Below, piece after piece: positions 96 through 21,233 of a DNA stretch of 28,129 bases. A model generated the notes under the pieces. The model made no database searches. It saw nothing but the letters and a program-made list of their open reading frames with translations, and was not told the origin of the DNA. This stretch comes from a virus. The position numbers and the translations under genes are program-made. Every line of letters starts with the position of its first letter. Positions within the stretch are counted from its first letter, which is position 1. Where the stretch lies: IMG/VR virus record IMGVR_UViG_3300046532_005078, positions 1 through 28,129 of that record. One strand, given 5' to 3'.

Positions 96-506
96 TTACA
101 ACAAAACTCCTGCTTTTTTGAAGAAATCTCTAGTCAGCTCACCTATAGAATAGATCTCGATAAGCTTTATGTTATTCATCTCGCAAAACTCTTGTTTGTT
201 CTGGTCTCTCCTTAGTTGATTGATATAGTTGTATTTATTATTGCCATGAAAGAAAGGAGTATATCGCTTGTGTTGTGCTCCTTGTACCTCTATGGCTACT
301 TTTTTATTAGCGTTATAAAAGTCTAGCGACATTTTTGTGCCAGCCACTGGAAACTCTTCGAAAACCACATGAGGTTCCCAGTATTTTTTAAGAAAATCTT
401 TTGTTGACTTCTGGATCTTGCTCCTGCTTTTCCCTTCCCACTTGATAAGATATTTCTTAGCATTAGCAATGTTTCGAGTAGCCCCCGTTAGGGTTTTAAA
501 CTTCAT
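96..506 (-). CDS. Small PD-(D/E)XK / VSR-DUF559-like nuclease
   Basis: A 136-residue protein that probably cuts DNA. The core reads as a restriction-like nuclease fold: SLDFY with D62, then IEVQGAQHK with E73, Q75 and H79, then a helix QLRRDQNKQEF with D101, followed by a strand IKLIEIYS. This order (Asp on a strand, Glu-x-Gln/Lys on the next, a downstream Arg/Asp helix) matches very-short-patch-repair/DUF559-type nucleases. Its ATG overlaps the TGA of the RecA-like gene by four bases (ATGA), so the two are probably co-translated, and the pairing suggests a role in recombination or repair, for example trimming or resolving DNA. Known: such small nucleases are common in phages. Inferred: the specific substrate. 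A homing-type endonuclease is an alternative but less likely given the coupling. Confidence 0.7.
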   Translation of the reverse strand: MKFKTLTGATRNIANAKKYLIKWEGKSRSKIQKSTKDFLKKYWEPHVVFEEFPVAGTKMSLDFYNANKKVAIEVQGAQHKRYTPFFHGNNKYNYINQLRRDQNKQEFCEMNNIKLIEIYSIGELTRDFFKKAGVLL

Positions 507-1651
507 TTAAGGGAGTCTACTTCTTGTTTTATTAAGTCTAAAAGCAAATTACAAAAAGGCTCGTGGGTTTCGAGATAATCTATTAATTTGGGCTCGCCCT
601 GTATCTTTTCGATAAACTCAATTTTTGCCTTTTCACACTTCTCTACAATTTCTTTGTCGAGAGAAATCCATGCGCCTTTCTTTTCTAGGAACCCCCAAAG
701 ATAAGCCATGTCTAATACCTCACGCTCCCTCCAGACAGATCTTCCATTTGTCCGACCATAACGAATGGGATAGCGGATTGACGTTCCTGTTTTTTCGTTA
801 ATGCTTTTTCTGAAAATAATTTTACACTGGTGCCCAATAGGGCTGCCTTTATCTTCTAGCTTAGCAGCACTTGGCTTTTCGAAAATGATATCGCTGTTGT
901 ATCTCTCTTGGAACTCTAAAATAAAATTGGCATAATGCTTGATAGCGTTGCCTCCTGCCTGCTTAGTCTTTGGACCCCCACGAGCAGCATAAGGGTTAGT
1001 GGCAACTTCCACTCGAACCTGTGAGGTCAAAATCATCATGTGATTAAGCTTAATAATGGGTAATACCATTTTCTTTAAGAAAACCGAAGTAATTAAAGCT
1101 CCTCCAGCAACCTGCTCACTATCCTCAAAAGGTTTTTCATAATCATTCTGTCTACATAACGCATCAACGCTGTCTACGATAAAAAGATATTTTTTATCTT
1201 CCTCATTCTCCTTTACTAAAAGCCGAATTAGTTCAAAAACCTTTTCAAAAACATTACAATCAAATTTAAAGAATCTTTCTTCGCTTGGGTCAATCCCCGC
1301 TCGAGTCACCATTTCTTTAGTTAAGCGTCCTTCGCTTTTAATATAAACCACTAGAGCCTTCTCCCCAAAACGATCCTGGAAGCGCTTAGCCACAGCCAAA
1401 GCACAAGAGGTCTTCCCTCCCTCGTTAACCCCCGTAAAGCGATGAACTCCTGCGGGGAACCCTCCCCCTAAAGCAAGGTCTAAATTGAGGCTACCCGTGG
1501 ATATCTTATAATCCAGTTCCTCATAATCATTATAGTGAAACTTTTTATTATCCTTGTCGTCAAGAAAGGCTTTGATTTTATTTAATGTTCCACTCATCTT
1601 ACTCTGACAAAAAATCTTTGATTGTTCTTTTACGCTTTTCAATGTTTCCAT
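503..1651 (-). CDS. RecA/UvsX-like recombinase
   Basis: A 382-residue RecA-family ATPase for homologous strand exchange. Visible are the RecA entry motif STGSLNLDLALGGG (51-64), Walker A GVNEGGKTS (74-82), the Glu of the ATP-hydrolysis loop at E107 (in YIKSEG, where most RecA proteins have Asp before Ser-Glu), Walker B YLFIVDSVD (155-163), the sensor Gln Q211 in TSQVRV, and the L2 end QAGGNAIKHY (231-240). Length is close to phage UvsX and bacterial RecA. The start at 1651 is preceded by AGGAG three bases upstream, but it overlaps the upstream gene by 53 bases; the alternative ATG at 1597 (MSGTLNK) would start just after that gene's stop. I favour 1651 because of the AGGAG. It sits between a small unknown gene and a nuclease, forming a recombination operon. 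UvsX or phage RecA cannot be separated by eye. Confidence 0.9.
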   Translation of the reverse strand: METLKSVKEQSKIFCQSKMSGTLNKIKAFLDDKDNKKFHYNDYEELDYKISTGSLNLDLALGGGFPAGVHRFTGVNEGGKTSCALAVAKRFQDRFGEKALVVYIKSEGRLTKEMVTRAGIDPSEERFFKFDCNVFEKVFELIRLLVKENEEDKKYLFIVDSVDALCRQNDYEKPFEDSEQVAGGALITSVFLKKMVLPIIKLNHMMILTSQVRVEVATNPYAARGGPKTKQAGGNAIKHYANFILEFQERYNSDIIFEKPSAAKLEDKGSPIGHQCKIIFRKSINEKTGTSIRYPIRYGRTNGRSVWREREVLDMAYLWGFLEKKGAWISLDKEIVEKCEKAKIEFIEKIQGEPKLIDYLETHEPFCNLLLDLIKQEVDSLK

Positions 1652-2020: not shown

Positions 2021-2453
2021 TGGTGGAGATGGCGGGAGTCGAACCCGCGTCCTTGTATAGATCTATAGTCTATCTCGTTACAAGTTTGTCCTGCTTTTTT
2101 ATGTTGTTGCAAACTCAACATTCAATTTCATTTATTTGTCTCCGAATACTCAGCGAGCTACAGTTTGTGAATATGAATAACTTTTTCTATTTTTGCAGAT
2201 GTCGTCCTCGCATTCCTTTATCTGCGTCCCAGATGCAAGGGGTAGCTTATGCTACGGCAGCCAGCTGACGTGCAACACTCTTACGAGCAACAACCTTGCG
2301 GGTTGCAACCTTCTTGGAAGGATTGAAGCGGTCAAGCAGACCATTTACAAGTTTAGATTTGGCACTTATATAAGCCTTGGGCTTTTTAAGGAGCCAGCCC
2401 ACTCCTACTTGCAATAAAAAATTTAGCTAACAAGTCGAATCCTTGTCATCCCC
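2021..2453 (-). ncRNA. ssrA: Transfer-messenger RNA (tmRNA), one-piece, phage-encoded
   Basis: This RNA rescues stalled ribosomes by acting first as alanyl-tRNA and then as a short mRNA. The 5' end GGGGATGACAAGGATTCGAC and the 3' end GGTTCGACTCCCGCCATCTCC plus ACCA are near-canonical tmRNA termini. The seven-base acceptor stem pairs GGGGATG with CATCTCC (one G-U), the T-arm is intact, and CCA is encoded. After the first pseudoknot, which contains CTCCTTAAAAAGCCC much as in E. coli, a tag frame begins at GCC 2363 and ends at TAA 2249-2247; that stop lies in the loop of a perfect 5-bp hairpin (GTAGC/GCTAC, 2255-2242), as expected for helix 5. The gene is about 433 nt, longer than the roughly 360 nt usual for bacterial tmRNA, largely because of the long tag. 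A protein-coding reading of this stretch has no support. Confidence 0.93.
2247..2363 (-). other. tmRNA tag reading frame, about 38 codons, basic, with a five-codon repeat
   Basis: The resume codon is most likely GCC at 2363-2361, preceded by TAAGT, which aligns with the TAGTC before the E. coli resume GCA. The encoded tag starts AKSKLVNGLLD and ends VARQLAAVA, then TAA in the helix-5 loop. It has ten Lys/Arg and one Asp. Codons 18-37 are four consecutive five-codon units, KVATR, KVVAR, KSVAR and QLAAV (2312-2253), which look like tandem expansion of a 15-nt unit. The two other frames from this point stop after about three to five codons, so this is the only frame giving a plausible hydrophobic Ala-ended tag. 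The terminus AAVA differs from the usual LAA ending. Confidence 0.75.
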
Positions 2454-2472: not shown

Positions 2473-2501
2473 AGTTTACACTATTTACTTGTAAATGTCA
2501 A
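2473..2501 (-). promoter_or_regulatory. Sigma70-like promoter of the tmRNA gene
   Basis: On the minus strand a perfect TTGACA (2501-2496) is separated by exactly 17 bases from TAAACT (2478-2473), which has four of six consensus bases. Transcription would begin about 13 to 15 bases before the mature tmRNA 5' end at 2453, leaving a short leader for RNase P to remove. The element overlaps the last codons of the protease gene. It implies use of the host's housekeeping RNA polymerase and expression independent of neighbouring genes. Confidence 0.65.
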
Positions 2502-3402
2502 GCTTGTGTTCTGTTTTGATTAAGAAAGGATAGCGAGTTACCTCTGTTGCTTCTCCTCCTTCTGAATGTCCGCTTTTAATACCACTATCTTCGATCGCAA
2601 TCTTTTGAAGGTTCTTTAAGGAGGGGGACTCTATGTTGGGGTCGATAGCCCAAAGCACATCGTTTTCCAACGCCCATCTCTTCATACGTCGGATAGGAAC
2701 GGTTAAGTTAAAACCCTCCCCAGCACCCCTTACGAGCATACCCACATAACGACCATCGGTGAGGAACACTCCGCCACCTGAGGATCCTGGAAATGCGGTG
2801 ACGGTAGTTTGATCGTACTCTCTTTTACCGTGAATTCTACCAACTTGAGAAACAATTCCTGTCGTCATTGAGTTTGCACCCATCTGCCCCAGTAAAGAAC
2901 CTACATGAAAAAGACTAGTTCCAATTGGAATGATGGCGTCGTCTTTATTAAGATAAAATCTAGCGCTTTCTTTTGAGTAATCTTTTGCTCTTACCATTAG
3001 AAGGGCTAGGTCATGCCCGTCATCTGCATTAGAATATTTAATTACCATTGCGTCCATCTTGATCTCTCCAACACGCCTTCCCTCAGCCACCAACTCTTTG
3101 ACGATCTGTGCATCCTGGAATTCTACAACCTTTCGTGGCCGTCCATTTTCATCAATGACATCCCTAACGCTTCTAAGATTATCTACTACATGCCCCGCAG
3201 TCCACACAAAAGTGACTTCCTCCCCTTCGATTTCTCTTACAATAAGAACTCCCGAACCTTCGGACTTACTCCACTTTCCTTCGGACTTAATGGTGACAGA
3301 AACATCCTGAAGGAAATTAGCGACACGCTTTCTGTTTTTTAAGTCTTCTGAGAAAACAGGTGTCGCAACTAAAAATGCCAAGAATAATGTAATATACTTC
3401 AT
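2485..3402 (-). CDS. Exported trypsin-like (S1 family) serine protease
   Basis: A 305-residue chymotrypsin-fold protease. Numbered from the ATG at 3402, the catalytic triad is H71 (WTAGHV), D131 (DDGHDLALL) and S208 (FPGSSGGG), in the order and spacing of DegP/HhoA-like enzymes. An N-terminal signal peptide (MKYITLFLAFLVATPVFS, 1-18) indicates export to the periplasm or beyond. No PDZ domain follows; the C-terminal 45 residues are unrecognised. A TTG at 3435 would add 11 residues and overlaps the upstream stop by four bases, but the ATG gives a clean signal peptide and is preferred. It is the last gene of the 3432-6248 structural-type cluster, just before the tmRNA. It may process virion or host envelope proteins, or be a cargo gene; the substrate is unknown. 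Confidence 0.85.
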   Translation of the reverse strand: MKYITLFLAFLVATPVFSEDLKNRKRVANFLQDVSVTIKSEGKWSKSEGSGVLIVREIEGEEVTFVWTAGHVVDNLRSVRDVIDENGRPRKVVEFQDAQIVKELVAEGRRVGEIKMDAMVIKYSNADDGHDLALLMVRAKDYSKESARFYLNKDDAIIPIGTSLFHVGSLLGQMGANSMTTGIVSQVGRIHGKREYDQTTVTAFPGSSGGGVFLTDGRYVGMLVRGAGEGFNLTVPIRRMKRWALENDVLWAIDPNIESPSLKNLQKIAIEDSGIKSGHSEGGEATEVTRYPFLIKTEHKLDIYK

Positions 3403-3431
3403 CCCATATGATATACTGGGCCTCAAAGATT

Positions 3432-4940
3432 TCAAAATTTTTCGACTTTCTTTTTGATGCTATTTACTAGTTTATGGAAGCTAGTATTCTGGGTGGCTTT
3501 ATTTTCTTGGGTTTTTTTATTAACTAAATGTATGCGATGCTGATTCCTGCGAGCTAAAGTTTGCATTTTTTTTAATTCCTTATGCGCTTTTCTGTAAAAA
3601 ACAATTCCATCCTTGTTATTATTTATTTTTTTTTTACTGCCCTCATAAAATTCAATAATACTCTTAATTCCTTCCTTGTCGGGAAGGTTGGGGATTTCAT
3701 CGAGCTCTTGATTTAATTCGGCTACTTGCGACTGAAGGTCATTTACTTCTTTGGCTGGTGCAAAGTCTTTGCGGGCTTGAAGCTGTTCAATTTTTGAATC
3801 TAACTCGGTGAATTTTTCAAACAATGCGTCTACGTCTAAGCCTTCTAATTTATCGTGAAACTTCTCTATCTTCTTGTGCTTAAAATATTTATGTAGTCCT
3901 CCTGCGGCAGCTAGGACTAACAGTACTGCAAGAGGATCGAAAACAAAAATCAATACAACTATGACCATACGTACCGCCTTGTCTAAGGCTATTTCGCTGG
4001 CACCTAAGTCTTGAAATAGCTTTGCAACATATTTTATAGGACCAACTTCAGCTTCGAGGGCTCGTATTCTATCATCAAAACCAAGCTTAGTAATTTGAAA
4101 TTCATTAATGCGGTCTGAGGCTTCATTGATTTGTTTATTATACTTCTCTATCTCGTCTTTTGAGGTATCATGACCTGTTCCTCTGTCCTGCTGAAAGGAG
4201 GCAATTTTTGTTCGAGATTCTTTTATCTCTTTGTCCGCTTTCTGGCGATGAGTCTGTATTCTATCTTCCGCAGTCTTAATCTTTGCTTGAATGTCTGCGC
4301 GCTCCTCTGCCTGAGCGATCGTCAGCTTTGCTAGCTTGTCTTTTTTGGTGGAGAATAATCCTCCTGGCGATGCCTCAAGCGTTGCGACTGAGGCATCTAG
4401 CTCCTGCCTTCTCTCTACTATTTTGTCGATAGCAGTCTGCTCAAAAGAAATATCTCTATTTAATTGTTCGTTTAGCTGACTTATTCTTTTTTCTTCTCGC
4501 TCTATATCTATAAGATTAATATCCTTAGAGGAGGTAAGCCTTTTTTCTTCGTCCTTGATATAAGCGTCTTGTCTAGAGATGAATTGTTTTTCTCGTGCAA
4601 TCTTCTCATCTATTTGGGTAACCTGAGCCATCTCTTTCTCAGTTAAGTAACTGTGTTCTATGTGAGCTTTTGATAAGAAGCCAAAAATACCCATGCTGGT
4701 GACTAACATTAATACCCCTACTGCTATAGTAAGGTACCATTTAATAAGTTTATTTGCTTCTTTCCAATGGGAGTGCAGCCATACCGCGGCTACAATTTTG
4801 CCAACCTCTAATACTGTACCCATAATAATTACAGAGAGCGCACTGCCAGGAAACATAGTAGCTAGACCAAGGATACTAAAATAAGCTGCCGTTGCTGAAA
4901 TACTAAGCGCCGAAAGAAGAACTAAAATATAAAAAATCAT
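3432..4940 (-). CDS. Membrane protein with long coiled coil, marine-phage structural type
   Basis: A 502-residue protein with three N-terminal membrane helices (about 3-27, 34-56, 68-90), a very long charged coiled-coil stretch (about 98-310), a fourth membrane helix (323-347, MVIVVLIFVFDPLAVLLVLA) and a second coiled-coil/basic tail. The N-terminal pattern, with small residues in helix 1, then GTVLEVGKIVAA in helix 2, resembles proteins I recall from marine myoviruses annotated as structural or hypothetical. The ATG overlaps the stop shared with the upstream small virion-like gene (4937-4940), and the stop overlaps the protease start. It could be a tail/tape-measure-like or membrane-penetration component, but that is inference. 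Even membrane topology would place the coiled coil and the tail on opposite sides only if one helix is re-entrant. Confidence 0.75.
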   Translation of the reverse strand: MIFYILVLLSALSISATAAYFSILGLATMFPGSALSVIIMGTVLEVGKIVAAVWLHSHWKEANKLIKWYLTIAVGVLMLVTSMGIFGFLSKAHIEHSYLTEKEMAQVTQIDEKIAREKQFISRQDAYIKDEEKRLTSSKDINLIDIEREEKRISQLNEQLNRDISFEQTAIDKIVERRQELDASVATLEASPGGLFSTKKDKLAKLTIAQAEERADIQAKIKTAEDRIQTHRQKADKEIKESRTKIASFQQDRGTGHDTSKDEIEKYNKQINEASDRINEFQITKLGFDDRIRALEAEVGPIKYVAKLFQDLGASEIALDKAVRMVIVVLIFVFDPLAVLLVLAAAGGLHKYFKHKKIEKFHDKLEGLDVDALFEKFTELDSKIEQLQARKDFAPAKEVNDLQSQVAELNQELDEIPNLPDKEGIKSIIEFYEGSKKKINNNKDGIVFYRKAHKELKKMQTLARRNQHRIHLVNKKTQENKATQNTSFHKLVNSIKKKVEKF

Positions 4941-6278: not shown

Positions 6279-7208
6279 TTATGAAGACAAAAACTTAACT
6301 AATTGTGGGGGAAGCATCCGCTGAGCTTTTGCCCTCACTCTCTTGGCCATATACGGGTCCCGCTTAGAACCTGCTACCAAGTGGGTATACTTAACATCTT
6401 TGGACCCCTTATAAATTTGCGCTCCATCCCGCTTCATATCTATTCTATTACAAACATGATATCCTGGGGGCGGCTCTAACAATGGAACTACTATTCGGTT
6501 ACTTGCAAAAGTTTCTTGTCCAAAAAACCACTGTTCGTAGATGGCATTAAAGGAATCTCCAAGATCGTGAGCCTTTAGGTAGGCAATATTTTCTTTTTTT
6601 CGTAAAATAGTTAAGACTTTGTTGGCATACTTCTGAATAAAATCTACATCTGTACCTCCAAAGATACCAAAATTAGGAGTGAGTACAGGATTGTTAACCT
6701 TTTTCTTATTAATTCCCACCATCCATCCCAGCTTTTTAAATAGATTAGAGAACTGAGAAAAATCATGCCTTAAGGGAGACTCCATGATTCGTTTAAAACA
6801 AAAATCATACATAGGCATTTTGTATTCTACACTCTGGCACACTAACTCCTGATGCAGGAAAGCAAGTGGTGGACGCTCCCAAAAGAAAACATCATTGTCA
6901 ATATGCAGGAAGGGCTCTTTCTGTGCGGCATAGGTTATCATTTTGGGGTAAGCCCACAAGCTACGAGGGACACCTTCCGTGTTTAATATTTCAATATCTA
7001 AATGAACCTCATCAAACAGTTGCAAAAAAGGGTCAAGCTCTCTGTGGCCCTGCTTGTCAGTAAACAAAACCACCTTTTTAAAAAACATTTTTGCGCAGTA
7101 AATGGCCAACACAAAAGAACTTATGAAATCTTCACGAGTATTAAAACCACAATATCTATTTAAATAATTGGGGACCGCCCAATGGGTAAAAACTGCTGTC
7201 CGTATCAT
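6279..7208 (-). CDS. GT-A-type glycosyltransferase, DUF6734-like
   Basis: A 309-residue protein likely to transfer a sugar from a nucleotide-sugar. Residues 99-110 (PFLHIDNDVFFW) give a strand ending in the Asp-Asn-Asp metal/nucleotide motif (104-106), preceded by WAYPKMITYAAQ, a helix typical of GT-A enzymes. A second conserved patch, PNFGIFGG, lies near residue 180, and EQWFFGQE near 225. No signal or membrane segment is present. Its ATG overlaps the nrdB stop by one base (TAATG), so it is co-translated with the reductase. Similar proteins are annotated as DUF6734 in my recollection; donor and acceptor are unknown. Confidence 0.65.
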   Translation of the reverse strand: MIRTAVFTHWAVPNYLNRYCGFNTREDFISSFVLAIYCAKMFFKKVVLFTDKQGHRELDPFLQLFDEVHLDIEILNTEGVPRSLWAYPKMITYAAQKEPFLHIDNDVFFWERPPLAFLHQELVCQSVEYKMPMYDFCFKRIMESPLRHDFSQFSNLFKKLGWMVGINKKKVNNPVLTPNFGIFGGTDVDFIQKYANKVLTILRKKENIAYLKAHDLGDSFNAIYEQWFFGQETFASNRIVVPLLEPPPGYHVCNRIDMKRDGAQIYKGSKDVKYTHLVAGSKRDPYMAKRVRAKAQRMLPPQLVKFLSS

Positions 7209-8224
7209 TAGAAATCGTCCTCAAGCGCTCCTCCTTGTTGGTACTCTCGGACACGCCTTTCAAAAAAATTGGTCATGGCTTGGGTGTCTACTACTTCTGA
7301 TAGCCAAGGGAAGGGGTTGCTATCCGATGGGAACCTATAGTCAAGACCAATGGCCGCCATGCGGCGATTGCCGATGTAATGCATGTAATCCACAAACATA
7401 TCAGCATTTAAACCGAGGATGCCTGTAGGCAATACCTCTTTGGCGTAGGCAACTTCTAATTCCACAGTGGTTTTCATGTGCTCTGTGAACTCTTCACGAA
7501 TGGCCTTTGTCCATATCTTGGGATTTTGTTCGATCAAAGTATTGATAAGGTAAGTTCCGAATTCAATATGCAAGCTCTCGTCGCGTAATGTATATTTTAT
7601 TTGGTCTGAAATCCCTTGGAGTTTATTCTGTCTTCCTAGTGCCAGCAACATTGCGAAGCCCGAGAAGAAAAAGGTACCCTCACATATTATATAATAAGTA
7701 AATAAATTCTTAAGCAGTTCCTTCTTGCCCTCTTGTGTGTTGGTGGAAAAATCATTTCTGGTTAGGTCAGTTGTGATCTCCATTAAGAAATCGTCCTTTG
7801 CTTTGATTGAGGGGACCGTTTCATAAGCACGAAAGACTTCGTCTATATCTAGGTCGAGGCTATCGCAAATATAAACGATGGTTAAATTGTGGAGGCTTTC
7901 TTCATACGCTTGCCTTAAAATGTATTGCCTACATTCGGGGTCCGTGACGTACTTGAAGGCCGAAAGAAGAAGGTTGTTACCCACTAAGGACTCACTGCCC
8001 GCAAAGAAACCTAAGCATCTCTTCACTAAAAGCTTTTCGTCAGGAGAAATATCTCCGCCCTTCCATTGCTGGATGTCTTCCTGCATAGAAATCTCTGTAG
8101 GCATCCAATTATTGGCGCACCCTTTTAAAAATAAGTCCCAGGCGAACTTGTGGCGATGAGGTAAAATTCTATTTACCCCTGCAATTTCAGGAGTTATGAG
8201 GTCGGCTGTTTTTTCATCAAGCAT
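7208..8224 (-). CDS. nrdB: Class I ribonucleotide reductase small subunit, class Ic-like (no radical tyrosine)
   Basis: A 338-residue R2 protein that generates the radical for ribonucleotide reduction. All six metal ligands can be placed: E78 (FFAGSESL), E109 and H112 (YEESLH), E182 (IICEGTFFF), E216 and H219 (RDESLH). Two features are unlike standard class Ia: the first ligand is Glu rather than Asp, and the radical-tyrosine position four residues after H112 is I116. Chlamydia class Ic R2 shares the Glu and has Phe there. The C-terminal YQQGGALEDDF is the expected tail that binds the large subunit. No nrdA lies in the window, so it must be elsewhere or host-supplied. The gene helps make dNTPs for phage replication. 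NrdB identity is very firm; the metal type is inference. Confidence 0.94.
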   Translation of the reverse strand: MLDEKTADLITPEIAGVNRILPHRHKFAWDLFLKGCANNWMPTEISMQEDIQQWKGGDISPDEKLLVKRCLGFFAGSESLVGNNLLLSAFKYVTDPECRQYILRQAYEESLHNLTIVYICDSLDLDIDEVFRAYETVPSIKAKDDFLMEITTDLTRNDFSTNTQEGKKELLKNLFTYYIICEGTFFFSGFAMLLALGRQNKLQGISDQIKYTLRDESLHIEFGTYLINTLIEQNPKIWTKAIREEFTEHMKTTVELEVAYAKEVLPTGILGLNADMFVDYMHYIGNRRMAAIGLDYRFPSDSNPFPWLSEVVDTQAMTNFFERRVREYQQGGALEDDF

Positions 8225-8844: not shown

Positions 8845-9558
8845 TCAGTCCCCTTTAGGGAAGTAATTTAAATATTTCATTACTTCAACTATGTGCGGGG
8901 CGCGGTCGAGGTCTCGATTTTTTGACTCTACATTTCGGGGAGTATTCAAATTTTCTAATGGTCCGTGGAGGGGATCGGTTGTCGACCCTCCTTTTAAGTT
9001 CTTTATTTTACCCACGGCAACATCAAGGGTTTGAAGGGCGGGGAGAAAGCTTAATAGTCTATTTCGAGCTGATCGGGTATCCGATACTAGGTCTTCGTAG
9101 GATAAAAGTAAACAGTTCTTTAGCGAGTTATGCAACTCTGCAATTGTTTTATTGTGAAAATACCAATCTTGTACGCCATGGCGGTAACAATAAGGGTCGC
9201 GGGTAAGTAATACAAAAAAAACTTTCCCCAGCTGAGAAAAATAATGCTCGTAACTAGGGGCATGTACCGCCTCTGTAAACTTGTCGCATAAAATAGGTTT
9301 TGATGGGTCCCATAGTTTCTTGTAGGCGTCGTGTGCTTTTTGCATGGGGAGCTTGAACTCAGGAGAATATCTATTATCTGCCCATCCCTCAATAAGAGTA
9401 TCTCTCCTTAAGTGAAACAGGGCGCTTCCCTCTCCTACATGACTAGGGTTGGAAGAGGAAATGCAAGTACTAATCGCAGGGGAGGTATGGAGAATCTTAT
9501 ACAAAGCCGTAGATCCTGAGTGGGGCGCGGAAACTAAAAATAAATATTTCTTGTTCAT
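8845..9558 (-). CDS. Sulfotransferase (PAPS-dependent)
   Basis: A 237-residue cytosolic-type sulfotransferase that would move sulfate from PAPS to an acceptor, here probably a sugar. The 5'-phosphosulfate-binding loop is SAPHSGSTALY (10-20), equivalent to the usual S-x-P-R-S-G-S-T, and the 3'-phosphate-binding region is VLLTRDPYCY (116-125, R120). A conserved LLSYEDLV follows. It is last in the minus-strand glycan run and its ATG overlaps the FkbM-type methyltransferase stop by four bases. Two more sulfotransferases of other subtypes lie at 14772 and 27331. Acceptor specificity cannot be read. Confidence 0.8.
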   Translation of the reverse strand: MNKKYLFLVSAPHSGSTALYKILHTSPAISTCISSSNPSHVGEGSALFHLRRDTLIEGWADNRYSPEFKLPMQKAHDAYKKLWDPSKPILCDKFTEAVHAPSYEHYFSQLGKVFFVLLTRDPYCYRHGVQDWYFHNKTIAELHNSLKNCLLLSYEDLVSDTRSARNRLLSFLPALQTLDVAVGKIKNLKGGSTTDPLHGPLENLNTPRNVESKNRDLDRAPHIVEVMKYLNYFPKGD

Positions 9559-10241
9559 GGCAATGGATGGAGAGAGGCGAAGAAATTAATCCACTGAAAG
9601 TCATCGACGAACTTATCTATTTTAGTGAAGCCATTAACGTCTAGACTATAAACGGAATAATTAAACTGTTTTAAAAAAACGATAAAGTCGTCGAGCTTTA
9701 AGCCCGCATCTTTGGTTGCCATTCCGTATTCAAACTGAATATAATTAATTAAATTTTTTCTTAATAGGGTTTTAGCTCCTTTAAGAACCTCTAGGTCGTA
9801 GCCTTCTGCATCAATTTTAAGAAGGTCGATTGGGGTGGAGAATAAAGAATCTAAAGGCGTTAGCTCTACCTGTTTGGCCTTAACCTTAAGGCGGTCTTCT
9901 TGGAAAACGGGTCGAGCAACTACGGAAGACATATCGTTCATAACCGTTTTATCTTTGACCAATTTAAGCTCGTGAAAAGTTGCCGATTTAGTTGTTGCCC
10001 CCAAGGTTAAATTTAGCACTTTTATGTGAGGCCTATCGTTGAATCGCTCCTTCATGCGGGAGCAGCACAAAGGAATTGCATCTATTGCATAAATTTTTTT
10101 TACATTTAAAATGCTGTCCGCAAGGTTAGAGTAGTCTCCGTAGTTCGCTCCCACGTCAATAACAGTTGCGGGAGCCTTTTTTTGTCTTTTCATGTACTCT
10201 AAAAAGACCCTTTCTTCTGTTAGTCCTTGATGCCAGTTCAT
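9555..10241 (-). CDS. FkbM-family methyltransferase
   Basis: A 228-residue S-adenosylmethionine-dependent methyltransferase. Motif I is VIDVGANYGDYS (27-38) and the FkbM signature DLLKIDAEGYDLEVLKGA is at 139-156; IQFEYG follows at about 168. FkbM enzymes usually O-methylate hydroxyls and are frequent in bacterial and marine-phage glycan loci. Both ends overlap neighbours by four bases (ATGA), showing tight coupling to the fucosyltransferase-like gene before it and the sulfotransferase after it. Sugar O-methylation is the likely role. Confidence 0.85.
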   Translation of the reverse strand: MNWHQGLTEERVFLEYMKRQKKAPATVIDVGANYGDYSNLADSILNVKKIYAIDAIPLCCSRMKERFNDRPHIKVLNLTLGATTKSATFHELKLVKDKTVMNDMSSVVARPVFQEDRLKVKAKQVELTPLDSLFSTPIDLLKIDAEGYDLEVLKGAKTLLRKNLINYIQFEYGMATKDAGLKLDDFIVFLKQFNYSVYSLDVNGFTKIDKFVDDFQWINFFASLHPLP

Positions 10242-11050
10242 GATTTGTGTTCCTGTAGGTGTTTGGCGTAGAGCCCAAAAGTACTATTGTGGGACGATAA
10301 AACGAGAGACTTGCATCTACTTAGGAGTAGTAGGTCTACAGCCGCATCCGTGGCATTAAGTGGGTTACTACGGTCATAGCATAAGCTTTTTTGGGAAATA
10401 AAATTTACACCTACTTCTTTTGCTTTTTCTAGGAAGGAGTCTTCATCTGTGGAGATGAAGAAGGGTCGAGCGTTTTGTAACCTTTTCAGTTTTTCTATAA
10501 ACTTTGTGGAGTTAGTGTGTTCAGGATGCAGGTCTCTAAAGTCTTGCCCCCTAAAATGCACCCCTTTTAAGGATGCAAGCTTATATTTCTTTTCCAACCT
10601 CAATACCTTTTCGGCTATAGGGTCGCTAAAATCATTTAGATTTAGAGATTTAAAGAGACAATCAAACTTAATATGCATTCCAGTTTCCGCAATGAGGTGA
10701 ATATTCCCTTGGCGTGGGTTAATGAGGGTTCTTAATACTTTATCTGTATAAAGGGAGGGGTGCTCGGTGGATACCTGAGGTATGAGGTTGGTCTTTTCTC
10801 GATAAATAACATCCTGGCTAGAAGCCTCTAGCTGTGGGACATGTTCGGATTCTTCAAAAAGATTAAACTTAATTTCAGGCATTTTTAGTAGTTCCTCTGG
10901 CGGGGTAGACATCATGGACCCGAGTGGCCATTGTACCTCTATGCGGCTATGTGGAATTAAGGACCTCAGTTTAAGCGCGGTTTCTAAACTATACAGCCTA
11001 TTGCACAATCCGCAAGGGGGCTGAAGGTGGAGGTAGATTATTTTATTCAT
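10238..11050 (-). CDS. Fucosyltransferase-like GT-B protein (GT11/GT23/NodZ type)
   Basis: A 270-residue protein with the landmarks of the alpha-fucosyltransferase superfamily: GLCNRLYSLETAL (14-26, compare G-x-x-NR), VHFRGQDF (164-171, compare H-x-R-x-x-D), STDEDSF (200-206) and ATDAAVDLLLLSRC followed by SSHNSTFG (233-259). These form the GDP-fucose site in GT11/GT23/NodZ enzymes. The canonical Arg-Arg-Gly-Asp is here Arg-Gly-Gln-Asp. Its start ATGAATAA shares eight bases with the stop of the upstream gene. It gives the locus a second fucosyltransferase candidate next to the GT10 enzyme. Confidence in the superfamily is good, in fucose moderate. Confidence 0.7.
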   Translation of the reverse strand: MNKIIYLHLQPPCGLCNRLYSLETALKLRSLIPHSRIEVQWPLGSMMSTPPEELLKMPEIKFNLFEESEHVPQLEASSQDVIYREKTNLIPQVSTEHPSLYTDKVLRTLINPRQGNIHLIAETGMHIKFDCLFKSLNLNDFSDPIAEKVLRLEKKYKLASLKGVHFRGQDFRDLHPEHTNSTKFIEKLKRLQNARPFFISTDEDSFLEKAKEVGVNFISQKSLCYDRSNPLNATDAAVDLLLLSRCKSLVLSSHNSTFGLYAKHLQEHKS

Positions 11051-11831
11051 TAAACTGTTTTGCCCAAAAGCTAAGGTATAGCTTTTCTATATTAAAGTGT
11101 CTACCCATAAATTCTTTATATTTTTTATCGAGCCACTCTTCCGATATATCACACCAGTCTCCCACAAAAAGGAAAGGGAGGTCTTTAAACTGCTCCATTG
11201 CGGGGTGTTTTTTTACTATAGGAATACACCCCAGATACAGAGCCTCCCAGTGCCTGTGACAATCAGGGCCATTTCCTTCAGGGGAAAGACAAAATTTACT
11301 AGAAGAGAGAGATTTATAAAATTCTATATGAGGAACCTTTGGAGAGGAAGTAATCCAAGACTGCGCCTCCGCCCACACCGATAAATTCCGTCGCTGTTCG
11401 CAGGGGTCGGTGGGGTTAAAACACGAATAAACTAAATTCGAGCGAGTTTGTCTCGGGCGGTTTTTTTGATCACAAAAACTTTTAAAAATCTTTAACGGCT
11501 CTATGGTGTTTTGATCTAGGCTCGTGAAGTTAACCAATCCGATGGGAATGGAAATAATATGGGGGTGATTAGTGCGGTTGTTTTGAGCAAACCATTTGTT
11601 TTTAAAAAGGGGTGCATCTGCAATGCTAAAGCTACGAAAGTCTGAGCCCCTAGAGCTAGTTAGGTATTTGTCGCTATTATGAGTGAGGAGGTTCCAGGGT
11701 TTTTGGGTTTTTATTTTATTAAGGTGTTCGCTTTTGCAGTAGGTGGTTTTACTGTTCTGACACACAACCATTAATCTGTTTCCCGTGATTATTTCATCAT
11801 CACTAATAATTGTATTCGTCCAGTTGTTCAT
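11043..11831 (-). CDS. Exostosin/GT47-like glycosyltransferase
   Basis: A GT-B-like protein with the exostosin-type donor-binding block FCLSPEGNGPDCHR, then EALYLGCIPIV, near its C-terminus. This pattern (Ser-Pro-x-Gly-x-Gly-Pro, Arg, Glu-Ala, Gly-x-x-Pro-Ile-Val) is shared with the protein at 17584-18564. The start is uncertain. ATG 11897 would add 22 residues, has GGAG two bases upstream, and overlaps the upstream gene by 95 bases; ATG 11831 overlaps by 29. I chose 11831 because the extra N-terminus looks unlike a domain. The 3' end shares ATGAATAA with the next gene. Exostosins add GlcNAc, glucuronate, galactose or related sugars; the sugar here is unknown. Confidence 0.7.
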   Translation of the reverse strand: MNNWTNTIISDDEIITGNRLMVVCQNSKTTYCKSEHLNKIKTQKPWNLLTHNSDKYLTSSRGSDFRSFSIADAPLFKNKWFAQNNRTNHPHIISIPIGLVNFTSLDQNTIEPLKIFKSFCDQKNRPRQTRSNLVYSCFNPTDPCEQRRNLSVWAEAQSWITSSPKVPHIEFYKSLSSSKFCLSPEGNGPDCHRHWEALYLGCIPIVKKHPAMEQFKDLPFLFVGDWCDISEEWLDKKYKEFMGRHFNIEKLYLSFWAKQFNE

Positions 11832-12642
11832 ATTGTTTAAGATTACTGTTATATTCTTCCTTAAAGGTATGATTAAATAGGGGGCAGAAATTATCATTGC
11901 TCCAAGGCGCTGCCCAGCGAAAAAAATGAAGAATAGAAGTGTGGTTAGTGTTTATTAGGTTGTTGTGGTAAAGCCCCCAGAAGCAGACCTGCTGTCCAAT
12001 GGATTTCCATTCTTGATTAAATATCATATTGAGGGGTTGTTGGTCGGTCCATTGAATGCCCGAATTTAAAGACTCCTCTGTAGCGGGTATAAGGTCCTTG
12101 TATTTAGAGATGTAGTCTAAGGCTTCCGTGCCGACCGAAGGGTGGTACTTTTGAACTTTGGCTGGGCGAAAACCTACAACTCCTGAATTAAAGGCCACGC
12201 TCGAAAGTGTAAAAGATTCTTTCAGGTTATCTAAAGCACTAGAAAGAGCATGTGGAAAGTAATCCCCTAATGTAAAAACCTTATTAGTATTTCTGTCGGG
12301 CTCGCAGAACAATAAATTAGGATGTTGGTAGATTGTATCAAATAGAGGATTAATATCCCCAATGCACATGGTATCACAATCCATATACAACACTGCGTCC
12401 CAATCGAGCAAGAACCTCTCGCCCCATAAGTCCAGTTTACTTAAAATGATATGGGGGTTTTTAGGTTTATTATTTTTTCTAACAAAACAATTGGGGGCGT
12501 TAAGCTCGTCCCCCTTTATGTCGGGAGAGAGAACCCCAATTGCGCCTTTCCACTTGCCTGTAATGCGTAGGGAAACAATTAGTGATTTAACGTGTGCTAG
12601 ATAGGCGTGATTGGCGTAAAGGAGAACTAAATTTTTTTTCAT
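11803..12642 (-). CDS. GT8-like glycosyltransferase
   Basis: A 279-residue GT-A protein. Counted from the ATG at 12642, VLYMDCDTMCIGDI (84-97) contains the Asp-Cys-Asp metal-binding motif (88-90), and TDQQPLNMIF supplies the conserved Asp-Gln that often marks GT8-type folds. A substrate-side HFFRWAAPW motif lies near the C-terminus. The ATG at 12642 overlaps the previous stop by four bases (ATGA), which decides it over a start 14 codons upstream. The donor is probably a UDP-sugar; the product is unknown. Confidence 0.75.
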   Translation of the reverse strand: MKKNLVLLYANHAYLAHVKSLIVSLRITGKWKGAIGVLSPDIKGDELNAPNCFVRKNNKPKNPHIILSKLDLWGERFLLDWDAVLYMDCDTMCIGDINPLFDTIYQHPNLLFCEPDRNTNKVFTLGDYFPHALSSALDNLKESFTLSSVAFNSGVVGFRPAKVQKYHPSVGTEALDYISKYKDLIPATEESLNSGIQWTDQQPLNMIFNQEWKSIGQQVCFWGLYHNNLINTNHTSILHFFRWAAPWSNDNFCPLFNHTFKEEYNSNLKQYEQLDEYNY

Positions 12643-13337
12643 GACGGGCCCAGGGAAGTTGGAAATTGAAAGCGATAGGGCCACCCCTTATTAAGAATTA
12701 ATGAACGCAATGAGAGTCGACAGATTAACTCATTATATTTAAAATCAATAGGTACCGTCACGCTGTCCAGCTCTTTTAAGATTTTTTTAGAACACTCTAG
12801 TGAGAACATCACTGCGTGAGTTCCTCGGGTAATTAGAGGTAAACCCTTGTTGTAGTGAACCAGTTTACCGCTAAAACGGACCACTTGGTGTCCAGGAATA
12901 GCTGTATCTCCTAGGTGAAGTATGTCGCCATTGTAGTTATGGAATTCAGAAATAATTTCAGGCATAATTTTGTTAAAATCCAGTGGTATTGCTGCATCGT
13001 CTTCTAAAATTAAGAGGTACGGGGTATTGGTTAAGCTGTGTTTTCGTAGGGCTTCTTTATGTTTTAGGTAAAGAGATAATTGTCCCAAGTTAAGGCGCTT
13101 GTAAGGATTGCGGTATTCTCCATGAGCATGTTTGATGGTTATATTGTGGTGTTGAGTTTGGGGACTAATCAATTGACTGTGTGCGTCCTTAATTTCGGCA
13201 GGAGAGAAACCCTGCTCCCACCTCACTTTATTGGGGTCTATGTGTGCCGCAATAAGGTTTTCTAAAAGCTTACTCTTTCGTTCAACCAGGGTGGGGTGAT
13301 GAGCAATGGCGATAGAATAAAGAGGTGGGCGGGTCAT
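12639..13337 (-). CDS. GT25-family glycosyltransferase
   Basis: A 232-residue protein with the GT25 (LPS/collagen galactosyltransferase-like) pattern: an N-terminal Ile-Ala-His region followed by ERKSKLLENLIA, then LGQLSLYLKHKEAL (84-97), then LLILEDDAAIP (108-118) with the acidic LEDD, and THAVMFSLECSKKIL near 168-182. Family members add beta-1,4-galactose to lipooligosaccharide. Its ATG overlaps the methyltransferase stop by four bases. It is among the clearer family calls in the cluster. Confidence 0.8.
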   Translation of the reverse strand: MTRPPLYSIAIAHHPTLVERKSKLLENLIAAHIDPNKVRWEQGFSPAEIKDAHSQLISPQTQHHNITIKHAHGEYRNPYKRLNLGQLSLYLKHKEALRKHSLTNTPYLLILEDDAAIPLDFNKIMPEIISEFHNYNGDILHLGDTAIPGHQVVRFSGKLVHYNKGLPLITRGTHAVMFSLECSKKILKELDSVTVPIDFKYNELICRLSLRSLILNKGWPYRFQFPTSLGPS

Positions 13338-14032
13338 TTTTGTGCAAAAATCCAGGTAACAACAGGCCTATCTGGTTCATTTTTGAAGTGCGAGAGCTCT
13401 TTAAAGGTGGGCCAGCATTCCTTCTGGCGCTGAAACAGCCTTTGATGATAGTCTCTATTGCCCCAAAATCCAATATCTAATATATTGAACCCTACGCTTT
13501 TAAAAATGCAGCCCAAGCCGACTGGGGTAAACCCAGTAAATTGGTGAAAAGGGGTGGAGTGAGGAATGTTAACTGCAGGAAGATTCATATAGGCGATGCC
13601 TCCCTCCGCTAGGTGTTTATAGACATTATGGACCACTGCAAAAGGATTAAGGGTGTGCTCCAAAGTCTGGTTGGTCATAAAAAAATCAAAACTCTTTTCT
13701 TCTAGGTTCATTGTGTGTAAATCGAGGCTGTTGCGATCATTGTAGTATGAGTAGTGGGTTAAAGTCTTAGACTTTAAGAAGGAAAGTTCTGGGTCATTAG
13801 CCCCGTTAAAAATTAAGGACTTATTGAACTCCTGGGGGTTTTCCTTGAAGAAACGCCCGAATTCTAAAACCGCAGGTACCCGAGCACAATCAGCGTTTTT
13901 CCAATTCCACTCCAAGGCGTTTAGCGTCATAGTGGGGAGCGGATCATACCTCTGGCAATATTCATCTGTTAGCTTGGGACAAATAAAGGTGGTATAAATG
14001 TGCTGTATATCCTCGTCTGTAAGATGTCTCAT
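13334..14032 (-). CDS. SAM-dependent methyltransferase (class I, Methyltransf_11-like)
   Basis: A 232-residue protein from the ATG at 14032, which overlaps the previous stop by four bases (ATGA) and so is preferred over a start eight codons upstream. The central KSFDFFMTNQTLEHTLNPF is a motif IV/post-motif region of small-molecule methyltransferases, followed by LAEGGIAYMNLPA. The N-terminal Gly-rich motif I is weak, reading EFGRFFKEN or IFNGAND, so the fold is atypical there. It probably methylates a sugar or sugar precursor given its neighbours. Confidence 0.65.
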   Translation of the reverse strand: MRHLTDEDIQHIYTTFICPKLTDEYCQRYDPLPTMTLNALEWNWKNADCARVPAVLEFGRFFKENPQEFNKSLIFNGANDPELSFLKSKTLTHYSYYNDRNSLDLHTMNLEEKSFDFFMTNQTLEHTLNPFAVVHNVYKHLAEGGIAYMNLPAVNIPHSTPFHQFTGFTPVGLGCIFKSVGFNILDIGFWGNRDYHQRLFQRQKECWPTFKELSHFKNEPDRPVVTWIFAQK

Positions 14033-14775
14033 GGTTTTGAAAATTGTTCTGCCCACAAAGAGCGAACTTCTTTTATTTTATGGGGAAGAGTTGGCCAATT
14101 TCGAGTATGAAAATGAATATCTATCTTGGCATTCTCTCGGGAGTGGGAAAAGGAGCAGTTTTCTATTTGCCAGGGTTCTACTCGTAGCTCGCTCTTTAAG
14201 CCTAAAAGTTTCGACGAAGGGGAAGTCCTGAGTAGTTCGGGGTTTTTCTGAAAAAAAGAAGAGATCACCATTTCGTCGGTATTCCAATCTAGACCCACTG
14301 CGGTCTTGGATTTGTTTACAAAGTCTGAAAAACTAGATCCCTGGTGTAAGCGTTGGTGTAAGATATCGCCTCTGAAGGAAAAATATTGCATGGGTATTCT
14401 GTACCCATTTTCATTATAATGTTGATAGCATGGGGTGAAAAAAGAAGAGGAGTCTTGAGGGGGAAGTACCCGATCTAATATATCTCGCGCCAAAGGAAAG
14501 AGGTCGAGATCAGATATCATACTTCGCTCCTCTGTCTGGGGAGCATAATACAGCCGAACTAGTTGGGCTAATTGAGCAATAGGAACATCTATGCTCGGCT
14601 CATGTGGGACCTCTATTATGTTTTCTTGGTGAGGTAAATCTTTGACGTAACCATTATTATCCACGCAGAGCAAAAGTGGGCGTGCCCCCAGTCCGCTCCA
14701 TATATAATGCTGGGTATCCCAAAACTGATAGTAAGAGGCGTTGTTATTGGTGGAGAAAATAACGTTGAGTTTCAT
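14029..14775 (-). CDS. Putative GT-A glycosyltransferase
   Basis: A 248-residue protein. AQLVRLYYAP (70-79), an acceptor-side helix, is followed by SMISDLDLFPLARDIL (85-100), with the Asp-Leu-Asp metal motif at 89-91. This helix-strand-DxD order is the GT-A donor site seen in several neighbours. VGLDWNTDEMVI and an Arg/His-rich C-terminal IDIHFHTRNWP complete it. Its ATG overlaps the sulfotransferase stop at four bases. I cannot place it in a named family. Confidence 0.6.
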   Translation of the reverse strand: MKLNVIFSTNNNASYYQFWDTQHYIWSGLGARPLLLCVDNNGYVKDLPHQENIIEVPHEPSIDVPIAQLAQLVRLYYAPQTEERSMISDLDLFPLARDILDRVLPPQDSSSFFTPCYQHYNENGYRIPMQYFSFRGDILHQRLHQGSSFSDFVNKSKTAVGLDWNTDEMVISSFFQKNPELLRTSPSSKLLGLKSELRVEPWQIENCSFSHSRENAKIDIHFHTRNWPTLPHKIKEVRSLWAEQFSKP

Positions 14776-15320
14776 CGGGGGTATTCAAATAGTTTAAAGT
14801 CTTTTTGGTAAAAGTCATAAATTACACTGCGGCTGGGTTCATCCAGCATGTGGTGGAACTGATCGGCTGAGGATGCATTTAACTTTTCTCCAAGCAGGGG
14901 GAGTTCGGGTTTGCCTATGTACGCGGTTATTTCGGGCCATTTTTCTTGTAAGTTTTCAAGCTTAAATATAAAAGACGGAAGGCATTCTCCATTGTGAAAA
15001 AAATAAGTGTGCATGGGCTGCATAAATCCTCCTGGGTGGTGACTAGGGAATCCGTTATGTACCCATTCCGAAAAGGTACATTGAAAATCAGGGAGCGCGC
15101 GTTCCTGGTGGTACTTAAAATACGAAAGGGCGCGCCTATAAGGATTGCGGGTTACTCCCATAAACGTAAACTCTCTAATTTGAGGGGCATAGGTACTGCA
15201 TATTTCGCTTGCAGTAATGTGTTTATCTGGACCAAGGACCCCTGCCTCTGGTACGCCAAGGGATTTACTAATAGAAGTGCCGCCGCATTTAGGCGGATGT
15301 ATCAAGAAGGGTCTCTTCAT
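14772..15320 (-). CDS. Sulfotransferase (Sulfotransfer_2-like)
   Basis: A 182-residue sulfotransferase. The PAPS loop is HPPKCGGTSISKSL (8-21), the Lys-Cys-Gly-Gly-Thr form typical of carbohydrate sulfotransferases, and the 3'-phosphate region is VTRNPYRRALSYF (56-68, R58). A GGAG three bases before its ATG supports the start at 15320, although this lies 32 bases inside the upstream gene. It overlaps the next gene by four bases. Known: this subtype often sulfates glycans such as chondroitin or heparan. Inferred: it acts on the glycan made by this cluster. Confidence 0.8.
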   Translation of the reverse strand: MKRPFLIHPPKCGGTSISKSLGVPEAGVLGPDKHITASEICSTYAPQIREFTFMGVTRNPYRRALSYFKYHQERALPDFQCTFSEWVHNGFPSHHPGGFMQPMHTYFFHNGECLPSFIFKLENLQEKWPEITAYIGKPELPLLGEKLNASSADQFHHMLDEPSRSVIYDFYQKDFKLFEYPR

Positions 15321-16008
15321 TTGCTCCTATTTTCAATAAGTGGGTTAGTGTTTGCATCTTGATGTTGTTATTATGGAGGGACTCAGGAGATGTATATCCT
15401 CTTTTCTTTAATAATAAACTAAATATGCTTTGATCATGTCTATGATCGATGAATTCGGGGTATTCGTCTAGAGGAGGTTCATTGGAAATTAAATTAAAAT
15501 TTTGGCAGCTGGCGCACCACTCGCTAATAAAATCTACAGTTAAGTCATTCTTTTGCAGTAAAAAGAGCGTGGCCATCCATTGTTCGTTAAAGAAACTTTC
15601 ATGATTGCAATCAAGCAGCTCAAGACATTTTTTTTTAGTATACGCTTTTTCTTGACACCCCGTACTTAAGGTGAGTAAGCCGCCGTTCTCTGAGCATTGG
15701 CTTTTAAGCGGCGCTATGCCATGGTGAACCAGGCAATCTGCGTCGTGATAAAATAAAAAGTCTCCATAATTTAAGTTATTAAGGATATCGTTTACTATGT
15801 GAGGTTTCCATATTAGACCTCTAAAGCGGCTGTAAAAATGGTCCCAAATATTTTGATTTTGAGATATATAATCAGGGGATATATCTTTTTCACTTAATCC
15901 CAGGTACTTATCGAAAAAATGATTTTTTTGTTCCCTAGTAATCGCAGCACTAACAAAGCTTTCGTACCTTGCGCCGCTACCGTAAGTAACCCCTATGGTT
16001 TTATTCAT
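15289..16008 (-). CDS. Putative GT-A glycosyltransferase
   Basis: A 239-residue protein from the ATG at 16008, whose first eight bases (ATGAATAA) contain the stop of the previous gene; an ATG at 16029 is possible. IWKPHIVNDILNNL (66-79) is followed by GDFLFYHDADCLVH (82-95) with Asp-Ala-Asp at 89-91, the GT-A metal site. DHRHDQSIFSLLLKKRG near 205 is a His-Asp-Gln region common in this kind of transferase. The family looks close to proteins annotated only as nucleotide-diphospho-sugar transferases. The sugar is unknown. Confidence 0.65.
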   Translation of the reverse strand: MNKTIGVTYGSGARYESFVSAAITREQKNHFFDKYLGLSEKDISPDYISQNQNIWDHFYSRFRGLIWKPHIVNDILNNLNYGDFLFYHDADCLVHHGIAPLKSQCSENGGLLTLSTGCQEKAYTKKKCLELLDCNHESFFNEQWMATLFLLQKNDLTVDFISEWCASCQNFNLISNEPPLDEYPEFIDHRHDQSIFSLLLKKRGYTSPESLHNNNIKMQTLTHLLKIGANEETLLDTSA

Positions 16009-16675
16009 TGTATTTATTAAGAACGCCATACTTTGCTCTATTCCTCTCTATCCAGCACTCTTGGCTTGGAAAATGTTTAAATCTGCTTGTATCTGGGTGC
16101 GGATTATGGTAAATAGGAATATTGTTTTTATCTATATCTAGTATTACTCTTTTCATTCCTGACCGTTCTAGTCGTTGATAGCATTCGCAGTCATCAAATC
16201 CGTAGTTTTTAATGCTTTCGTTCCATCCTCCAACTTTATTTAGCGTTTCTTTGTGTGTGTATATAAAGCCATTGAGGTATTGTAGAAATCCCGTGCCGTT
16301 ATCTATTGATAGATGCTTGTGAAAGCCAGTGATGAATTCTCCTTCTTCTAGTTTTAAGTAGTCGAAAATATTGAAATATGGGTTAAGTATATAGTCCGCG
16401 TCGAGCTTGATTATCATATCGCCACGGGCATTACTAAGCGCTAAATTATAGGCTTTAGTCATTTGAAAGTTTCTTTTATTGTCTACCCTTATTATTTTTA
16501 TTCTTTTATCTAGGTCCGCCAAGTTGGGTATGGGCGGCTCTGACGACCAGTCGACTATAATAATTTCGCTGATATCTTTATTTTGCAACCAAGAGTGAAT
16601 CGAAAGCTTAAGTATTTTGGTTCTATTCATTACTGCAACGATTGCCGAAACTTTTTTATTACTAAAGGTTTGCAT
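16001..16675 (-). CDS. GT2-family glycosyltransferase
   Basis: A 224-residue GT-A enzyme: SAIVAVMNR (10-18) starts the Rossmann-like half, IIKLDADYIL (88-97) holds Asp-Ala-Asp (92-94), and VGGWNESIKNYGFDDCECYQR (148-168) gives the acceptor-site GGWNE and catalytic Asp-Asp. The last block resembles the galactosyltransferase C-terminal domain, so galactose or N-acetylgalactosamine transfer is possible. The gene overlaps the GT10 gene by 14 bases and the next by eight. Confidence 0.8.
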   Translation of the reverse strand: MQTFSNKKVSAIVAVMNRTKILKLSIHSWLQNKDISEIIIVDWSSEPPIPNLADLDKRIKIIRVDNKRNFQMTKAYNLALSNARGDMIIKLDADYILNPYFNIFDYLKLEEGEFITGFHKHLSIDNGTGFLQYLNGFIYTHKETLNKVGGWNESIKNYGFDDCECYQRLERSGMKRVILDIDKNNIPIYHNPHPDTSRFKHFPSQECWIERNRAKYGVLNKYNE

Positions 16676-20534: not shown

Positions 20535-21233
20535 TTAAAGCTTCCCTTTTATTTCGTCTATAAGCCCTAGTTCCAAAGCTTCATCTGAAGAAATCCACCA
20601 GTCCTTGCGGTCCCAGTTTCTCTTAATTTTGAGCTTGGTTAACTCAGAACGTTTTTCAAAAATCTCTAAAATGCGAGATTCAATCCTTTTAATCCATGCT
20701 ACTTCGTCTTCAATCTCAAAAGTCTTTCCTACTGCGCCAAAGGCAGCCCTGTGAATCATCATCCAAGCTTGGTGGCCCATCCAACGATGTTCGCCTGCTT
20801 GTAATAGAACTCCTGCCATTGAGGCTGCCATACCTAAAGATCCTGTGGTAACTTTATGCCCCCGAGCACGCAATTCCTGAATAAAATCAAAAAGAACGAA
20901 GCCGTCTACGATGGATCCTCCACCTGAAGAAAAAACGATCTCAATGTCACAAGCAGGGTGGCGACGAGACCACTGGGTTAAAGTATGCATGCAGTCATAG
21001 ATACGAGTCTTGTCAACTATAGTGTTAAATCGATAGATCATATTCTCCTGGTCGGTTGCCTTATCTCTCCTCCAGTCTTGCTCTTTTTTATCCGCCTCCA
21101 TCTTCCGTAAGCGCGCAGTATGGTGAGCGGTCTCTGTCTCCGCATCAAGCTTTTTGATCTCGGCCTCTACCCTTTTCGTCTCAGCCTTAATTTTAGCCAG
21201 CTCTTCTTTTGTTTTCTTTGCGTCGTCTGCCAT
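20535..21233 (-). CDS. ClpP/SDH-family serine peptidase with N-terminal coiled coil
   Basis: A 232-residue ClpP-fold peptidase. The nucleophile is S138 in GMAASMAGVL, the base H161 in MMIHRAAFG, and the acid probably D211 in KDWWISSDEAL, an order and spacing that match ClpP (S97, H122, D171 in E. coli). FSSGGGSIVDG (101-111) is the oxyanion-loop region. An extra 60-residue Lys/Glu/Ala-rich coiled coil precedes the domain and is not part of bacterial ClpP. Phages use ClpP-fold enzymes for head maturation, but no capsid gene is adjacent; here it heads the glycan genes. Alternatives are a self-compartmentalised peptidase or an adaptor-independent one. Confidence 0.85.
   Translation of the reverse strand: MADDAKKTKEELAKIKAETKRVEAEIKKLDAETETAHHTARLRKMEADKKEQDWRRDKATDQENMIYRFNTIVDKTRIYDCMHTLTQWSRRHPACDIEIVFSSGGGSIVDGFVLFDFIQELRARGHKVTTGSLGMAASMAGVLLQAGEHRWMGHQAWMMIHRAAFGAVGKTFEIEDEVAWIKRIESRILEIFEKRSELTKLKIKRNWDRKDWWISSDEALELGLIDEIKGKL

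Follow-up and report, generated by a model that had tools for sequence, protein, structure and literature searches.

This locus raised the question of whether a phage can carry a tmRNA whose tag is as long and as basic as its letters imply, or whether the tag region is an insertion that merely resembles a reading frame. The window we analyzed is the whole of a 28,129-base virus record with phage genes, for which an initial annotation had proposed a phage tmRNA with a tag of about 38 codons, built partly of five-residue units, containing ten Lys/Arg and one Asp and ending in AAVA. Translation of 2363-2247 bore out each of these particulars, giving a tag of 38 residues with ten Lys/Arg, one Asp and a UAA stop.

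A complete one-piece tmRNA gene

A cmscan search matched RF00023 at 2453-2021 on the minus strand with 111.8 bits (gathering threshold 47), the match covering the full model (1-374) with no truncation, and in 11 related viral contigs the RF00023 matches scored 98-127 bits. The resume codon of RF00023 (GCA) aligned with GCC at 2363-2361, in the frame that had been claimed; at this position L106 has GCA, and the rest of the family has GCC or GGC. The features of the locus are collected in Table 1.

Table 1. Positions of tmRNA features and of selected genes in the window
Feature	Positions	Strand	Basis
One-piece tmRNA (ssrA) gene, CCA encoded, 433 nt	2021..2453	-	RF00023 whole-model match
Acceptor stem 5' arm GGGGATG, partner CATCTCC at 2031-2025; G3:U70 alanine identity pair	2447..2453	-	compensatory variants
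Pseudoknot 1 (PK1), AGGAG/CTCCT + GGGCT/AGCCC	2379..2406	-	pairing in 9 sequences
Resume codon GCC (Ala); A at -4, U at -5	2361..2363	-	aligned to RF00023 resume GCA
Tag reading frame, 38 codons, AKSKLVNGLLDRFNPSKKVATRKVVARKSVARQLAAVA, net +9	2250..2363	-	translation; in-frame pN/pS
Three imperfect 15-nt units (KVATR, KVVAR, KSVAR)	2268..2312	-	unit identities 8, 10, 12 of 15; codon shuffles
Helix 5, GTAGC-ATAA-GCTAC; tag stop UAA (2249-2247) in loop	2242..2255	-	variation among relatives
Pseudoknot 2 (PK2), CCTTGCAT/ATGCGAGG + GCAGAT/ATCTGC	2195..2240	-	covariation, first stem
T arm, GCGGG-TTCGACT-CCCGC	2032..2048	-	replaced with pairing retained in L131
Promoter-like TTGACA-17-TAAACT, upstream of tmRNA 5' end	2473..2501	-	10/12 consensus (sigma-70-like), match only
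UvsX/RecA-like	503-1651		
Ribonucleotide reductase small subunit	7208-8224		
ClpP-fold head maturation protease	20535-21233		PHROGs

Supporting the proposal of a phage tmRNA, the stems change in a compensatory manner among the related viruses. The acceptor stem occurs as GGGGGCG/CGCCTCC, GGGGGTG/CACCTCC and GGGCGTG/CACGTCC with G3:U70 retained in all, and every PK1 pair forms across nine sequences, with compensatory changes of AT to CG, GC to TA and CG to GC. The first stem of PK2 covaries at several pairs (CCTTTTCT/AGAAGAGG, CCTTTCC/GGAAAGG, CCTCGC/GCGAGG) and its second stem is invariant. In L131 (L140) the T arm has AGCAG/CTGCT in place of GCGGG/CCCGC, all pairs being retained. Helix 5 has 5 bp (GUAGC-AUAA-GCUAC), its second pair being TA, CG or TG among relatives, and in every relative compared a UAA or UAG tag stop lies within its loop, which is the expected place for the stop of a tmRNA tag (PMC1168896). 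The gene thus combines a whole-model RF00023 score, G3:U70 with a T arm and 3' CCA, PK1 before and PK2 after the resume codon, and a frame whose stop is in the helix-5 loop; by every structural criterion that can be checked from sequence, it is a tmRNA. ARAGORN reported no tmRNA on the window, and it gave a wrong or truncated tag in L106, L124, L125, L154, L156 and L162 (e.g., ADINWKGRYLHTRKIFFI, AREEYDNLVQFEQAEELEMVA).

The promoter-like site is of a quality for which we found three sites in the region, where shuffles predicted 1.5. TTGACA with a similar -10 element is retained in L125 and L131, and TTGACA also in L121; we saw no such site upstream of the tmRNA in L123, L106 or L133-L135.

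Neighboring genes

A trypsin-like serine protease gene (2485-3435) adjoins the tmRNA and its product is 66% identical to one in the virus of L106. Adjoining uvsX is a small protein (96-506) whose PHROG matches are homing and HNH endonucleases and which is 57-82% identical in related viruses. Glycosyltransferase-like (GT2, GT8, GT10, GT25, GT47), sulfotransferase-like and methyltransferase-like genes are dense at 8845-18564, 21567-22511 and 27331-27966, and a DUF6734 gene lies at 6279-7208; together they form a sugar-modifying load that is notable for a phage fragment. Positions 26562-27308 encode a low-complexity protein that is very rich in Lys and Glu and contains internal repeats, among them KKELKRDTKKEKGEHEKDA and KKELKKDSKKEKGEHEKDA. 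The ClpP-like gene was considered as a phage-supplied protease for tagged proteins and set aside, as its PHROGs are those of the head maturation protease.

The tag is a conserved peptide

A DNA pattern based on PK1 matched seven viral stretches. One of these, L035, was 99.8% identical to the window; the remaining stretches held four more distinct tags, each of 38 codons in the same frame, and L131/L132 supplied a fifth, giving with the window six distinct 38-codon tags in one shared frame. Among five close tags pN/pS was 0.30 in this frame versus 1.13 and 1.68 in the other two. The most distant tag, that of L106, is 49% identical to the window tag in a whole-length alignment with one internal and one terminal gap, and net charge is +7 to +9 in all six tags. 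No Pfam match to the window tag was found. The initial annotation had named a structural insertion with a broken frame as one finding that would overturn its reading; the relatives instead show the same 38-codon frame with compensatory pairs. Equal length, in-frame selection and compensatory pairing together indicate that the tmRNA is intact and that its tag is conserved as a peptide: on the pattern of substitutions, the frame is real and the peptide is under purifying selection.

These same observations bear on whether the gene is a degenerate or selfish passenger with a drifting tag region or a structural insertion. Such a passenger would fit with the failure of ARAGORN to find the gene or call its tag, and with the imperfection of the repeats described below, but it is contradicted by the length fixed at 38, the purifying selection in frame, the stop retained in the helix-5 loop and the compensatory pairs, and we give it almost no credence.

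Periodicity within the tag

Codons 18-37 of the window tag read KVATR KVVAR KSVAR QLAAV, as had been claimed when four five-codon units were proposed. The first three units are related at the DNA level (Table 1), whereas QLAAV agrees with them at no more than 6-7 of 15 bases and so is not a convincing fourth unit. At a lag of 15 nt the window tag matches itself at 22 of 30 positions, exceeding all 5000 codon shuffles, and four close relatives also show significant lag-15 periodicity (p 0.0002 to 0.005). In L123 the periodicity over any lag is weak (p 0.03), and the L106 tag, of equal length, has no lag-15 signal (p 0.46). With a second statistic, computed on 24-nt windows at any lag, the p values were 0.007 (window) and 0.09 (L123). 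Judged by these shuffles, the 15-nt periodicity is real in the window's clade.

The further proposal, that the tag grew by tandem expansion of a 15-nt unit, is a possibility; this origin is not established, because the homologous L106 tag reaches the same length without the repeat. An explicit version, which concerns origin and not function, is that an ancestor of about 20 residues (of the GKNKSRVVAFSPKAEKLALAA type) was lengthened through 15-nt tandem duplication of a KxxxR unit. It draws on the lag-15 similarity, which reaches significance in the window and in most of its close relatives, and on short tags being the commonest class on the scaffold (see below). Against these we set the missing repeat signal in L106, our failure to find intermediate lengths of the 38-residue basic type, and a likeness between the 20-residue tag and the N-terminal half that was judged by eye only, and on balance we are inclined to doubt it.

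Four tag classes on one scaffold

We searched for the wider family with a PK2 pattern and then with a 3'-scaffold pattern (71 stretches), and extracted 61 genes with 47 unique tags. The relatives, which together with the window make up an uncultured phage lineage, are metagenomic viral contigs throughout. Since they were located mostly by exact DNA patterns, the following class frequencies are biased: short tags of 19-21 residues, typically GKNKSRVVAFSPKAEKLALAA or GNKSRIKAYSPKSESLALAA, make up 30 of the 47; very basic tags of 31-33 residues with net charge +10 to +12 (e.g., GNKNRVRALGFKNRLAAKRFGFKGRKLALAA; L183, L190, L208, L221 and L232) make up five; the basic 38-residue class of the window, six; and acidic tags of 34-40 residues with net charge -9 to -11 (e.g., GEGYDSIEELLEAAREEYDNLVQFEQAEELEMVA; L133, L134, L135, L176, L180 and L217), another six on the same scaffold. 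Acidic tags were started at the family resume-codon position (GGC, or GCC in L176), which makes them 34 or 40 residues long; starting at an earlier in-frame GCT would lengthen them by three. The 38-residue class was seen only near the window.

In the assigned frame pN/pS was 0.30 for the acidic class (34-residue tags), 0.19 for 31-residue tags, and 0.47 and 0.42 for short tags, versus 0.90 or more outside it. All 47 unique tags end in Ala, with LAA, MAA, MVA, AVA, VAA or LVA as the last three residues.

We noted a possible 11-codon internal duplication (a GFKxR block) in the 31-33-residue tags that is marginal at the DNA level; a tandem origin of these tags was not retained (p about 0.03-0.1, and 0.66 in L183). 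Also excluded were L137, which matched the PK2 pattern yet had no tmRNA match, and weak second tmRNA matches in G001 and G002, suspected to be decoys containing only a tRNA-like domain; the one checked, in G001, was an ordinary tRNA-Met.

Exchange of PK1 and tag

When we compared the window with L121, the outer 5' and 3' segments were 59-63% identical, versus 92-100% for PK1, the linker and the tag. L121 and L134 showed the reverse pattern (75-82% in the outer segments, 37% in the tag), and between L203, with a short tag, and the acidic-tagged L134 identity was 93% in the 3' part but 29% in the tag. UvsX was found in 19 of 39 further contigs, at 44-72% identity to that of the window, and not in the other 20, possibly fragments. 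On the UvsX tree the four tag classes require seven changes versus a minimum of three, and both deep clades contain short tags that are nearly identical, although one of these clades is only 44-49% identical in UvsX to that of the window. The straightforward reading of these alignments is that a segment comprising PK1 and the tag has been exchanged between phages over a shared tmRNA scaffold.

Proposed function and alternative readings

Given the tmRNA structure, frame, peptide selection, C-terminal rule and cassette exchange, all of them read from sequence, we think it probable that the gene serves functional trans-translation with host SmpB, appending a lineage-specific body that is under selection and, after it, a C-terminal degron. 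Charging, SmpB binding, tagging, release and proteolysis are the established steps (PMC8012679). During infection the host alanyl-tRNA synthetase would charge the phage tmRNA, G3:U70 being retained, and host SmpB would bring it to ribosomes stalled on truncated mRNA; the SmpB is assumed to be that of the host because we found no smpB gene in 13 viral records, some possibly fragments. The ribosome would resume at GCC 2363, adding Ala plus the 38 encoded residues, and would be freed when translation ended at the UAA in the helix-5 loop. A host AAA+ protease would then recognize the last residues, LAAVA, as a C-terminal degron. The AAVA end had been taken as a departure from the usual degron; this does not imply loss of the degron, because every one of the 47 unique tags in the family ends [LMAV][AV]A and E. 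coli ssrA variants ending in LVA are rapidly degraded (PMC9097571, PMC11003136), and by analogy the end appears compatible with a degron. The basic body would most likely be a long unstructured handle or docking segment fitted to a given host's protease or adaptor, in which charge may play a part. The long tag of Mesoplasma florum, which that species' own Lon protease recognizes (PMC9097571), suggests such matching by analogy, and a host-fitted body would explain the exchange of PK1 and tag as a cassette with the tRNA-like scaffold retained. It is rather unlikely, in our estimate, that this widespread phage lineage goes as far as re-addressing rescued proteins through these cassettes, with body and C-terminal end together setting a host-tuned destination; if it did, the body would direct a tagged protein to one protease, one adaptor or one site in the cell, and the lineage would switch between strongly basic and strongly acidic long tags.

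Instead of marking rescued proteins for degradation, the basic body could confer nucleic-acid or membrane binding, as the initial annotation had suggested, or protection, or could poison host proteins. The net charge of +7 to +9 kept in all six 38-residue tags and the still higher charge of the 31-33-residue tags in related phages would suit such a role, but the tags of sister phages on the shared scaffold are charged at -9 to -11, so that one charge-based role cannot account for the whole family; the degron-like end is universal, and no Pfam DNA-binding match was found. Since the sign of the charge flips among sister phages, a shared nucleic-acid-binding role is unlikely family-wide and possible for the basic classes, and overall we regard these other fates as improbable. 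Alternatively, the long tags may be those of uncultured hosts, where they would be ordinary, captured together with PK1 by recombination with host ssrA. The behavior of PK1 and tag as an exchange cassette agrees with capture, as do the near-identical short tags in both deep UvsX clades; however, a tag-pattern scan of 85,462 GTDB species genomes, with strict patterns and with many hosts unsampled, found no bacterial relative of the 38-residue tag. A scan of the same genomes with a 5'/PK1 DNA pattern found no related locus. We treat host capture as conceivable, with somewhat more doubt than confidence.

Comparison with known systems

Like the bacterial one-piece tmRNA (RF00023), the window gene has a CCA-encoded tRNA-like domain with G3:U70, PK1, a resume codon, PK2, a stop in the helix-5 loop and a small hydrophobic tag end; unlike it, the gene is phage-borne and has a 38-residue tag with a strongly basic body. 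Phage-borne tmRNAs occur in mycobacteriophages Bxz1 and Wildcat, Bacillus phage G, Streptomyces BE1 phages and the OM43 phage Melnitz, with which the window shares the location of the gene on a phage genome. Among the matches listed, Streptomyces phage tags are short and LALAA-like or FALAA-like (e.g., ANSNVASAYALAA), unlike that of the window, and the Melnitz tmRNA is two-piece (PMC9004378) whereas the window's is one-piece. A tblastn search of cultured phages gave no match to the window tag or to a 21-residue family tag, and the best cultured-phage matches listed for the tmRNA DNA covered only the conserved 3' end.

As the initial annotation stated, the tag is longer than most described: a 2021 review gives 8-35 residues (PMC8012679), a range that is descriptive and not defining, and it is exceeded by the 38 residues of the window's clade and the 40 of L180 (counted from the family resume codon). 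In the available portion of a 2025 database paper covering 79 phage sequences, the commonest length is 10 residues and no maximum is stated, so a longer tag may exist there (PMC11915505). The ssrA/mf-Lon system of M. florum also has a long tag (AANKNEENTNEVPTFMLNAGQANYAFA; 27 residues if the Ala borne by the tmRNA is counted), but that tag is cellular, not basic, and ends in AFA (PMC9097571), whereas the window tag is basic and phage-borne. The Carsonella tag is unusual for a charged last residue (PMC4131195); the tags of the present family invariably end in Ala and carry their charge in the body.

In the literature we searched there was no description of charge-switching, exchangeable long tags in one phage lineage. 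Because ARAGORN misses or miscalls such genes, viral tmRNA surveys that rely on it would mis-state tag diversity. The usual view of the ssrA tag is that of a short C-terminal degron. In these related phages a single tmRNA chassis carries exchanged long bodies from +12 to -11 net charge under purifying selection at the peptide level, which makes it directly testable what the body does beyond the last residues and whether phages adapt their tags to host proteolysis.
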